Shown: one piece after another, positions 52,802 through 56,513 of the stretch
Layout of the letters: each line of letters begins with the position of its first letter
How positions within the stretch are numbered: the first letter of the stretch is position 1
Assembly (NCBI GenBank): GCA_029261965.1
Contig: JAJDAH010000209.1
Coordinates: forward strand, 1 to 64,000
Direction of reading: 5' to 3'
Length of the DNA: 64,000 nucleotides
From: Polyangiaceae bacterium
Lineage (GTDB): Bacteria > Myxococcota_A > Polyangia > Polyangiales > Polyangiaceae
Notes under the pieces: model-generated
The model's database searches: none
The model's input: the letters and a program-made list of their open reading frames with translations, nothing else
What the model was told of the DNA's origin: nothing
Translations under genes and position numbers: made by a program

Positions 52802-53419
52802 CTATTCGTCGACGAGCTCGCCCCGACCTTGCTCGACCGCGAGAAGCGAAATGGCCGCTCCGGCGCCAGGCTTCGCCGTCCAATCGCTCTCGGGGGTGAA
52901 CGCCGAAACTTCGGGCCAGTGGTCCTTCTGTGGCTCAGACCCCTCGTCGACCACGCTGAGCGGTTCTCGATCGGAAACCACCGGGGGCCGCGTGATGTCG
53001 AGCGATTGCCAACTCACCTCGAGGGGGAGGTTGTTCGGATCTTTGAAGTAGATGCTCCAGCAAACTCCGTGGTCGATGACTCCTTCGACTGGGATGTCGG
53101 CGGCGACTAGCTTGTCGCGAAGCTCGAAGAGAGACCGTTTGCTGTCGACGCCTATGGAGACGTGGTCGAAACCGCGTTTGGAATCCGAGGGCACTCCCGG
53201 TCGCGTGTTGCGCATCGGTTCGGCAGAACCTTCGGGGTACTGAAAGAACGCCAGCGAGTCGTTCTCATTGATTCGGAAAAAGTAGTGCCGAAAACCCTCT
53301 TCCCCGATGCAAACGGTCAACGGCATCCCGAGCAGGTCCCGGTAGAACCGCACGGTTCGCTCGAGATCGGTGGTGATGAAGGCGAGGTGATGAATTCCCG
53401 AGAACATGGCTCGTGTCAT
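52802..53419 (-). CDS. VOC (glyoxalase/dioxygenase) family protein
   Basis: A 205-residue protein; M5 (53407) is an alternative start. It has two VOC beta-alpha-beta modules: GIHHLAFITTDLERTVRFYRDLLGMPLT with EGFRHYFFRINENDSLAFFQYP, and FDHVSIGVDSKRSLFELRDKLVAADIPVEGVIDHGVCWSIYFKDPNNLPLEVS. The metal-site pattern of His in IHHLAF, His in FDHVSI and Glu in LPLEVS is the typical one for dioxygenase/glyoxalase members. A C-terminal tail of ~55 residues has no known domain. The gene is divergent from proS, and the intergenic region holds three phased palindromes likely to be its operators. Confidence 0.85.
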   Translation of the reverse strand: MTRAMFSGIHHLAFITTDLERTVRFYRDLLGMPLTVCIGEEGFRHYFFRINENDSLAFFQYPEGSAEPMRNTRPGVPSDSKRGFDHVSIGVDSKRSLFELRDKLVAADIPVEGVIDHGVCWSIYFKDPNNLPLEVSWQSLDITRPPVVSDREPLSVVDEGSEPQKDHWPEVSAFTPESDWTAKPGAGAAISLLAVEQGRGELVDE

Positions 53420-53488: not shown

Positions 53489-53545
53489 CTATCAAAATGA
53501 TAGCTTGCGCTATCAAAATGATAGTCTGCTCTATCGTTTTGATAG
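53489..53545. promoter_or_regulatory. Three palindromic operator-like sites at exact 21-bp spacing
   Basis: Palindromes with half-sites CTATC and GATAG around a 5-bp spacer start at 53489, 53510 and 53531. The first two are CTATCAAAATGATAG, and the third has spacer GTTTT. The start-to-start distance is exactly 21 bp each time, two helical turns, so bound dimers would lie on one face. The sites lie in the divergent gap 70 bp from the VOC start and 50 bp from the proS ATG. The segment is AT-rich relative to its surroundings. No regulator gene is adjacent; HxlR-, MarR- or TetR-type binding is possible. Confidence 0.7.
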
Positions 53546-53595: not shown

Positions 53596-55317
53596 ATGCG
53601 CTACCGCAACACCCTCATTCCCACTAGTAAAGAGGCTCCCTCGGACGCCACGAGCGTGAGTCACATTCTGTTGATGCGCGCGGGGTGCGTCAGGCGCGTC
53701 GGAACGGGCATTTACGAATTTCTCCCGCTCGGCGTGAGAGTGCTTCGAAAAATCGAAGCGATCATCCGACAGGAGATGGACCGCGCAGGGGCGCTAGAGG
53801 TGCTTTTGCCAGCGCTCTTGCCGAGCGAGTACTTCAAGGAAACCGGTCGTTGGGATCTCTTCGGCGACACGTTGATGCGCCTGAAGGACCGCAAGGGAAC
53901 CGAGTACAACCTCGGTCCGACCCACGAAGAGATCATCACCGACTTGGCGCGCCGCGAGATCAAGAGCTATCGCGACCTGCCGAAGAATCTCTACCAGATC
54001 CAAACCAAGTTCCGCGACGAGCCGCGACCGCGCGGCGGTCTCTTGAGGTGCCGAGAGTTCTCGATGAAGGACGCCTACTCGTTCGACGTGGACGAGTCTC
54101 GGGCTCTCGACAGCTACGAAAAGATGCGCGGCGCCTACACCAACATATTCGACCGAATGGGTTTTCGCTACCGCATGGTCCAGGCTGACTCCGGCGCCAT
54201 GGGGGGCTCGAAGAGCGCCGAGTTCCAAGTTCTCGTACAGAGCGGCGAAGACATGGTCGCCGCGTGCATGCAATGCGACTACGCGGCCAACTTAGAAGTG
54301 GCCACGAGCCCCCCGTTCCCGCCGCAGGGCCCAGACCCGAAAAGCGTGCCTGCTCCCGAGAAGGTACACACCCCCAAAGCCAAGACCATAGAGCAAGTCA
54401 GCAAGTTCCTCGGCGCCGAACCGAAGCAGTTCCTGAAGAGCCTCGTCTACGTCGCCGGGGAAGGACTCGTGCTCGTCGTCGTCCGCGGGGACCACGAGGT
54501 CAACGACATCAAGCTCGCCCGCGCCCTTGGAGTGGACGAAGTCTTTCTCGCTGCGGAAGAGGACGTCAAGAAGGCCACCGCCGCGCCCGTGGGTTTCGCC
54601 GGACCCGTGGGATTTCGGGGACGCATCGTCGTTGATCAGGACGCGGCGAGCATCAGCGACGGAATCACCGGCGCCAACGAACGCGACCACCATTTGAAGC
54701 ACGTGCAACATGGGCGCGACTTCGAGGGCGAGGTGGAGACGATCCGCAACATCATCGACGGCGATCTGTGCCCGAGTTGCGGCGCCTCGCTCGGCGTCTA
54801 TCGCGGCATCGAGGCCGGCCACATCTTCGTGCTCGGCACGCACTACAGCTCGAAAATGAACGCGACCTACCTGGACGAAAAAGGCGAAAGTAACGCCCTC
54901 GTCATGGGCTGCTACGGCATCGGCGTATCACGATTGGTGGCGGCGATCGTCGAACAGCACAACGACGACAACGGCATCGTCTGGCCGATGAGCGTAGCGC
55001 CGTATCAGGTCCTCATCACCCAACTCGGCCAAGAGGTGGAGGTCGTCGCCGCGGTCGCCCAACTGGAAAAGGAGCTCGAGGCCGCGGGGATCGAGCTCCT
55101 AGTGGACGACCGCGAAGGGCGCCCCGGGGGTAAATTCAAGGATGCGGACTTGATCGGAATTCCTTTGCGGCTGACCGTCGGCAAACGCTCTCTCGACAAC
55201 GGCGGCGTGGAGCTCAAGCCCCGCACCGAAAAGAACCCCAAGAACGCCGAGCTCGTGCCGCTCGCTGACGCTGCAAAAAGGGCGATCGACTACGTGCAGA
55301 AGGCGCTCGAGCCATGA
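53596..55317 (+). CDS. proS: Prolyl-tRNA synthetase, bacterial type with editing domain
   Basis: A 573-residue protein, the normal bacterial ProS length. The start at 53596 (MRYRNTLIPTSKEAPSDA) is chosen because it matches the family N-terminus; the frame is open further upstream but crosses the operators. Class II motif 1 lies near FLPLGVRVLRKIEAIIRQEMDRAGALEVLLPALLP, motif 2 at YQIQTKFRDEPRPRGGLLRCREFSMKDAYSF and motif 3 near VMGCYGIGVSRLVAAIVEQ. The INS-type editing domain sits between (IEQVSKFLGAEPKQFLKSLVYV ... VRGDHEVNDIKLARALG). It charges tRNA-Pro and clears Ala-tRNA-Pro. It overlaps the next gene by 4 bp. Confidence 0.97.
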   Translation: MRYRNTLIPTSKEAPSDATSVSHILLMRAGCVRRVGTGIYEFLPLGVRVLRKIEAIIRQEMDRAGALEVLLPALLPSEYFKETGRWDLFGDTLMRLKDRKGTEYNLGPTHEEIITDLARREIKSYRDLPKNLYQIQTKFRDEPRPRGGLLRCREFSMKDAYSFDVDESRALDSYEKMRGAYTNIFDRMGFRYRMVQADSGAMGGSKSAEFQVLVQSGEDMVAACMQCDYAANLEVATSPPFPPQGPDPKSVPAPEKVHTPKAKTIEQVSKFLGAEPKQFLKSLVYVAGEGLVLVVVRGDHEVNDIKLARALGVDEVFLAAEEDVKKATAAPVGFAGPVGFRGRIVVDQDAASISDGITGANERDHHLKHVQHGRDFEGEVETIRNIIDGDLCPSCGASLGVYRGIEAGHIFVLGTHYSSKMNATYLDEKGESNALVMGCYGIGVSRLVAAIVEQHNDDNGIVWPMSVAPYQVLITQLGQEVEVVAAVAQLEKELEAAGIELLVDDREGRPGGKFKDADLIGIPLRLTVGKRSLDNGGVELKPRTEKNPKNAELVPLADAAKRAIDYVQKALEP

Positions 55318-56513
55318 GCGACGAAAAGAAACCGCTCGCCGGTTCCACCGACGCCGTGCACGCGGGCACCAACTACGACCGACCGCACCGCGCGATCGTT
55401 CGAGAGATCGCGCAGACCGCGACATACACCTGGCACGAGACCGCGGACCTCGAGCGCTTCATGAGCGGCGAGGACTCCGACACCGACAGGATCGAATACG
55501 GTCGGTATGGAAATCCAACGGTCCGCGAGCTCGAGGAACGACTCGCCGCTCTCGAACTCGTCGACGACGCTCTGGCATTTTCGAGCGGAATGGCCGCGAT
55601 CACGACGACCATTCTCACCCTGACGAAACAGGGCGACCACATCGTGCTCTTTCGTGATTGCTATCGCCGAACGCGCCAGTTCGTCTCGACGATGCTCGGG
55701 AAGTTCGGCATCGAGCACACCCTGGTGGACAGCGGCGATCTCGACGGACTCGACAAAGCCATCCAGAAGAACACCAAGCTCGTCATCAGCGAGTCACCGA
55801 CGAACCCGTATCTCGACTGCCTGGACCTCGAGCGGTTCGTCGAGGTCGTGAAGTCTCACGGTCGCATCCGCACGATGATCGACGCGACGTTCGCAACCCC
55901 GGTCAACTGCCGACCTGCCTCCTACGGGATAGACCTCGTCGTGCACAGCGCGACCAAGTATCTCGCCGGTCACAACGACGTGCTCGGCGGATTGGTCGCC
56001 GGCCCGAGCCACATCATCTCGCTCGTGCGAGAGCACCGTGACGTGATGGGCGGCGTGCTCGACCCGCACGCAGCATTCCTCATCGCTCGTGGCTTGAAGA
56101 CCCTCGGCGTGCGCGTGGACCGACAGAACACCAACGCCATGCGAATCGCGGAGATGCTGAGCCAGCACAAGAAAGTAGAGAAGGTTTTCTATCCGTCGCT
56201 CGAAAGCCACCGCTCACACGCCGTCGCAAAAAAACAAATGCGCGGCTTCGGCGGGGTGGTCAGCTTCGTCGTCGCCGGAGGCCGCCAGGCAGCGACCCGC
56301 GCGGTAGACGGGTGCCGGATCGCCAAGATCGCATCGAGCCTCGGGGGTGTGGAGACGCTCATCGAACAGCCGGCCATCATGAGTTACTTCGAGCTGTCAC
56401 CGGAGGAACTGGCCGCGGTCGGCATTCTCCCCGGGCTCATCCGTTTGAGCCTCGGGATCGAGGACACGGAAGATCTCGTCCGGGATCTTTCTCGCGCGCT
56501 CGACGAGGCCTGA
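55314..56513 (+). CDS. Cys/Met metabolism PLP enzyme (cystathionine gamma-synthase family)
   Basis: A 399-residue PLP enzyme of the trans-sulfuration family (fold type I). Visible blocks are EYGRYGNPTVRELEERLAALE (phosphate-binding Tyr/Arg region), FSSGMAAITTTILTL, ESPTNPYLDCLDL, MIDATFATPVNCRP, the PLP-binding Lys215 in HSATKYLAGHNDVLGG and GVETLIEQPAIMSY near the end. Members make cystathionine from O-acyl-homoserine plus Cys, or cleave it. The exact reaction cannot be fixed by eye. Its ATG overlaps the proS stop (ATGA), so it is translated with proS, an uncommon pairing. Confidence 0.92.
   Translation: MSDEKKPLAGSTDAVHAGTNYDRPHRAIVREIAQTATYTWHETADLERFMSGEDSDTDRIEYGRYGNPTVRELEERLAALELVDDALAFSSGMAAITTTILTLTKQGDHIVLFRDCYRRTRQFVSTMLGKFGIEHTLVDSGDLDGLDKAIQKNTKLVISESPTNPYLDCLDLERFVEVVKSHGRIRTMIDATFATPVNCRPASYGIDLVVHSATKYLAGHNDVLGGLVAGPSHIISLVREHRDVMGGVLDPHAAFLIARGLKTLGVRVDRQNTNAMRIAEMLSQHKKVEKVFYPSLESHRSHAVAKKQMRGFGGVVSFVVAGGRQAATRAVDGCRIAKIASSLGGVETLIEQPAIMSYFELSPEELAAVGILPGLIRLSLGIEDTEDLVRDLSRALDEA

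Follow-up and report, generated by a model that had tools for sequence, protein, structure and literature searches.

The window, the whole stretch of 64,000 nucleotides analyzed here, comes from a Polyangiaceae bacterium (contig JAJDAH010000209.1, positions 1 to 64,000). It contains three phased palindromes between a VOC gene and the divergent proS gene, laid out as follows.

52802-53407, minus strand: VOC gene (glyoxalase/dioxygenase superfamily, PF00903), ATG start at 53407; proposed target
53434-53419, minus strand: candidate sigma-54 promoter TGGCACGTAGCTTGGA, with -24/-12 elements TGGCACG-TAGC-TTGGA
53489-53503: palindrome 1, CTATCAAAATGATAG, VOC-proximal, at about -81 to -95 relative to the predicted VOC transcription start
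53510-53524: palindrome 2, CTATCAAAATGATAG, exact CTATC-N5-GATAG match
53531-53545: palindrome 3, CTATCGTTTTGATAG, exact CTATC-N5-GATAG match
53596-55317, plus strand: proS, the divergent neighbor, start at 53596

The flanking genes are those given in an earlier note on this DNA, and the three palindromes described there are present as exact matches, with a start-to-start spacing of 21 bp in both intervals; none of 100 dinucleotide-shuffled versions of the window contains CTATC-N5-GATAG. The two copies reported as identical are indeed CTATCAAAATGATAG twice, with a dyad that actually extends over 15 bp (CTATCA-NNN-TGATAG). Palindrome 3, read on the opposite strand, is CTATCAAAACGATAG and is one base off the other two, so that the site form common to all three is CTATCAAAAYGATAG. 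In the 9.59 Mb genome, about three single matches are expected from base composition and four are found, the three of the array and one at C162:2116. For three sites with an exact 21-bp spacing, however, the expectation is ~3e-13 per genome, and the phasing is not explicable by chance.

In the VOC protein, the presumed metal site (H7, H82, and E130) is invariant in the five homologues aligned. A protein search of genome contigs with VOC gave no relative. Towards proS, we observed neither a good sigma-54 box nor a sigma-70 consensus match (the sigma-70 scan being insensitive in GC-rich genomes). The control of proS suggested in the earlier note is unsupported; no sigma-54 box comparable to that of VOC points to proS. 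A gene for a Cys/Met-metabolism PLP enzyme (55314-56513 of the window) overlaps the proS stop codon (ATGA), which suggests translational coupling of the two.

On the VOC side, the candidate sigma-54 box differs from TGGCACGNNNNTTGCW at one position of the -12 element, where GC is GG (TTGGA and not TTGCA/T). It scores 12.5, on weights for sites and promoters that were set by hand and in part after some of the sites had been seen. The box is 55 bp from palindrome 1, and the chance of a box this good at 52-55 bp is ~3e-4; the same spacing class is common to nine homologous loci and to a pirin gene of Minicystis (see below). With a predicted transcription start at ~53408, immediately upstream of the ATG (53407), the VOC mRNA would be leaderless.

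A search of this genome with mismatches allowed gives a second array. Three sites came up close together in the search, and the sequence itself shows four copies, with spacings of 20, 21, and 21 bp. The array ends ~28 bp ahead of the probable TTG start codon of a gene that we call P0001.

C234:25489-25565: second array, copies CTATCGTTTCGAGAG, TTCTCAATTTGAGTG, CTCTCATTTTGATAC, and CTCTCATTTTGATAG
C234:25593-27206: P0001, sigma-54 activator of 537 residues, with XylR_N, V4R, Sigma54_activat (AAA+, GAFTGA), and HTH_8 domains

With paired sites, up to three mismatches, and 21-bp spacing, these two are the only phased arrays of the genome, and a search at 22-bp spacing with up to two mismatches adds none. 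The earlier note had advised searching the genome for further arrays and for an HxlR, MarR, or TetR gene bearing the same site: a further array does exist, but the gene linked to it is a sigma-54 activator. The closest solved structure to P0001 is that of DmpR (6iy8, E 2e-98), and the genome contains rpoN (Sigma54_DBD at C38:1578-2057, E 5.7e-64). No divergent sigma-54 box is present at the P0001 gene. P0001 keeps the Zn ligands of DmpR (Cys, Glu, Cys, Cys) and Trp128. At the position of His100, which in DmpR positions the phenol hydroxyl and is Tyr in XylR (PMC7264223), P0001 has Met, and this replacement makes a simple phenol an improbable ligand.

The arms of the window dyad are like those of tetO (CTATCA-N-TGATAG, arms 1 bp apart), and the dyad fits the T-N11-A spacing of LysR sites. 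VOC genes are often governed by regulators of the TetR, MarR, HxlR, or LysR type, and an operator array for such a one-component regulator, with VOC and/or proS under sigma-70, would account for the palindromes; the missing sigma-70 consensus match weighs little here, given how insensitive the scan is at high GC content. We consider this reading unlikely. The spacer is 3 bp in the window dyad versus 1 bp in tetO, and no TetR-, MarR-, HxlR-, or LysR-type gene is seen among the annotated genes beside either array (in the window, part of the genes are annotated). Moreover, next to the second array stands a sigma-54 activator gene, whose homologues show the same pattern together with sigma-54 boxes at a fixed distance. 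Readings as TetR, LysR, or OxyR-like sites, made from sequence alone, were dropped after the activator locus was found.

Homologues of the sensor half of P0001 occur in 34 of 78 genomes (its own included). At many of these loci, a phased pair of TC-N5-GA palindromes, 20-22 bp apart, lies just before the activator start, as in G050 (CTATCAATATGATAG-N6-TTCTCATTTTGAGAG) and G013 (CTATCAAGATGATAG-N7-CTATCAAAATGAAAT). Such a pair precedes the activator gene in 18 of 25 homologue loci, beating at least 96% of shuffles (the pair of L139 is of doubtful kind). At L139, upstream of G060:C1:10257234, tandem repeats of ~21 bp resembling GGGGCGCACGGCATCTTTTCG stand in an open frame that runs into the Minicystis activator gene. 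With boxes counted at a score of at least 12 out of 14.5, a sigma-54 box facing away from the activator gene and 43-66 bp from the array is found at 13 of the 25 loci, versus ~0.3 expected by background. Nine loci have the first base of the box 52-55 bp from that of the nearest palindrome; in three others the interval is 62-66 bp and in one it is 43 bp. The distances are in helical phase (Rayleigh p ~2e-4), the outliers being about one helical turn off. Beyond the array there is often a divergent gene, towards which the sigma-54 box points: YceI (by Pfam in L138; by eye in L141, L142, L150, L158, and L160) or pirin (by Pfam in L143; by eye in L161). In L162, it is cytochrome P450-like by eye, with no Pfam match for the piece tested. 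The architecture is thus conserved in relatives. That the window array is a non-regulatory repeat (a tandem duplication, a hairpin, or a terminator remnant) is highly improbable: two identical copies could stem from local duplication and one hairpin between palindromes scores as terminator-like, but the dyads are conserved while the spacers are not, and the same phased dyads are present at the second locus and in other genera.

A closer contender to P0001 is its paralogue at C258:3547 (47% over the first 250 residues), which might itself use the VOC array. It has its own TC-N5-GA pair, CAATCGAAATGAAGC and ACATCAAAATGACTG, 20 bp apart, and at 91 bp from the pair a good sigma-54 box, TGGCTCGATGCTTGCT, which precedes a divergent pirin gene. 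That pair, however, is devoid of the CTA/TAG outer arms common to the VOC and C234 arrays, and the paralogue groups in the activator tree with homologues whose sites are also without them. Since the paralogue's sites have no such arms, P0001 is the better match for the VOC array, and use of the array by the paralogue is unlikely. In the same tree, P0001 is on a long branch and there is little support for its placement relative to those homologues whose sites are of the CTATC type.

Searches with the pattern alone, without the regulator, return few related sites. Over 84,980 species, the array pattern gives 38 stretches. Most come from unrelated phyla and have other spacings: 19 bp (Streptomyces, archaea), 22 bp (Prevotella), or 32-33 bp (Myroides). 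All but that of Minicystis rosea were judged unrelated; viral contigs give 10 stretches. In Minicystis rosea, a pair at 21 bp is upstream of the pirin gene, with the box TGGCTCGCGGGTTGCT 52 bp away. In 318 genomes of the class, with two mismatches allowed, the search recovers the Minicystis rosea site, the array itself, sites in G013 and G223, and two others. The G013 and G223 sites are flanked by the activator gene on one side and a pirin gene on the other (for G223, the pirin was assigned by eye), and the G223 box is 84 bp away. One of the two others, in G010, lies within what by eye is a pirin-like coding frame; the second, in G156 (L183, G156:C195:7835), consists of three CCATCAAAATGAT-type palindromes in a 22-bp tandem repeat with no clear gene beside. 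Both were treated as chance or unrelated. Reversed-pattern controls also match, in five genomes at 21 bp and in one at 22 bp, so the argument rests on context and not on counts. A looser search for ATC-N5-GAT pairs was swamped by apparent coding-sequence matches. In Streptomyces (L041, L042, L046, L048, and L058), CTATC-N5-GATAG pairs at 19-bp spacing have similar flanks across five genomes and probably belong to a different regulator. In four Myroides genomes (L028, L037, L044, and L047), the pairs are 32-33 bp apart, mostly with CC/GG extensions, and look like hairpins or another operator. No description of the motif or of a regulon was found in the open-licence literature searched, which does not prove its absence.

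Taken with its context, the array is probably a three-site upstream activating sequence for an unlinked sigma-54 activator of the XylR/DmpR type, most likely P0001, that would drive VOC. One Fis-type HTH dimer would bind per palindrome, and the 21-bp period would set the dimers on one helix face, where a higher oligomer could assemble. On sensing of a ligand through V4R, the AAA+ domain would contact, via its GAFTGA loop, the RNA polymerase with sigma-54 at the -24/-12 promoter of VOC, 55 bp from palindrome 1, and would drive open-complex formation. The palindromes at the P0001 gene itself would provide autoregulation. The sequences with their statistics, the array at the P0001 gene, and the layout kept in relatives are observed; the binding, the ligand, the activation, and the autoregulation by P0001 are what we infer. 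The cooperative operator array of the earlier note survives as a phased multi-site array for a dimeric, cooperative regulator, a regulon type found in related genomes; a local operator of the HxlR, MarR, or TetR type is not supported.

Some points count against this activation of VOC: the TTGGA of the -12 element, the leaderless start, the unlinked regulator, and VOC homologues elsewhere that have no array. The array and a sigma-54 box at the expected place are absent at the four closest VOC homologues (G006, G137, G251, and G252; ~50% identity). The earlier note had held that arrays missing upstream of orthologous genes would refute its own reading. The absence at these four stops short of such a refutation: two of the genomes are without a close activator homologue, a third has two, and the fourth has a more distant one. 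In G006 and G251, VOC is present and both a close activator homologue and the array are absent; in G252, activators and VOC are present and the array is absent. Because VOC occurs without the array in these genomes, its control by the activator is not general.

In regulators of the XylR/DmpR/MopR type, the domain order XylR_N-V4R-AAA+(GAFTGA)-HTH_8 is that of P0001, and a palindromic UAS is found upstream of a -24/-12 promoter, as proposed for VOC. The UASs of DmpR-type regulators are ~100-200 bp upstream of their sigma-54 promoters (PMC7264223); among the sigma-54 promoters of Desulfovibrio, those with the nearest activator site no more than 100 nt away make up the largest fraction (PMC4641369). 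Regulator and target are often divergent (PMC3063778), a feature shared with the homologue loci; in this genome, the two are unlinked. The site also differs (CTATCA-N3-TGATAG, in two- to fourfold arrays at 20-22 bp), and the targets are pirin, YceI, or VOC and not aromatic catabolic operons. The NorR regulon (norVW), with three tandem palindromes in a divergent intergenic region before a sigma-54 promoter, as a scaffold for oligomer assembly, is like the VOC array (PMC1274295, PMC2941729). A norR2 site without a sigma-54 promoter is read there as autoregulation, and NorR paralogues are distinguished by few site positions (PMC1274295). On the other hand, NorR sites have a GT-N7-AC core and NorR senses through a GAF domain, as against TC-N5-GA and V4R here, with a target unlinked to the regulator; membership in the NorR regulon was rejected on core and sensor. 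With regard to tetO and TetR, only the arms CTATCA...TGATAG are alike, and no TetR-type regulator is among the annotated neighbors.

The array and VOC most likely form a regulon that is new in itself but of a familiar type, and not a new mechanism. It is unlikely that the enhancer, besides activating VOC through a leaderless sigma-54 transcript, represses or tunes prolyl-tRNA synthetase by occupying the proS upstream region; if true, such dual control would couple the sensing of chemical stress to translation. The group of XylR_N/V4R activators is widespread in this bacterial class and undescribed in the literature searched. The results give it a recognition site and a layout rule: TC-N5-GA dyads phased at 20-22 bp, with a sigma-54 box mostly 52-55 bp away and otherwise about a helical turn off. 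They suggest that activators of the group control single detoxification-type genes (pirin, YceI, VOC), the identity of which varies by genus while the promoter layout is kept. By the layout rule, sensor, site, and target are made directly testable.
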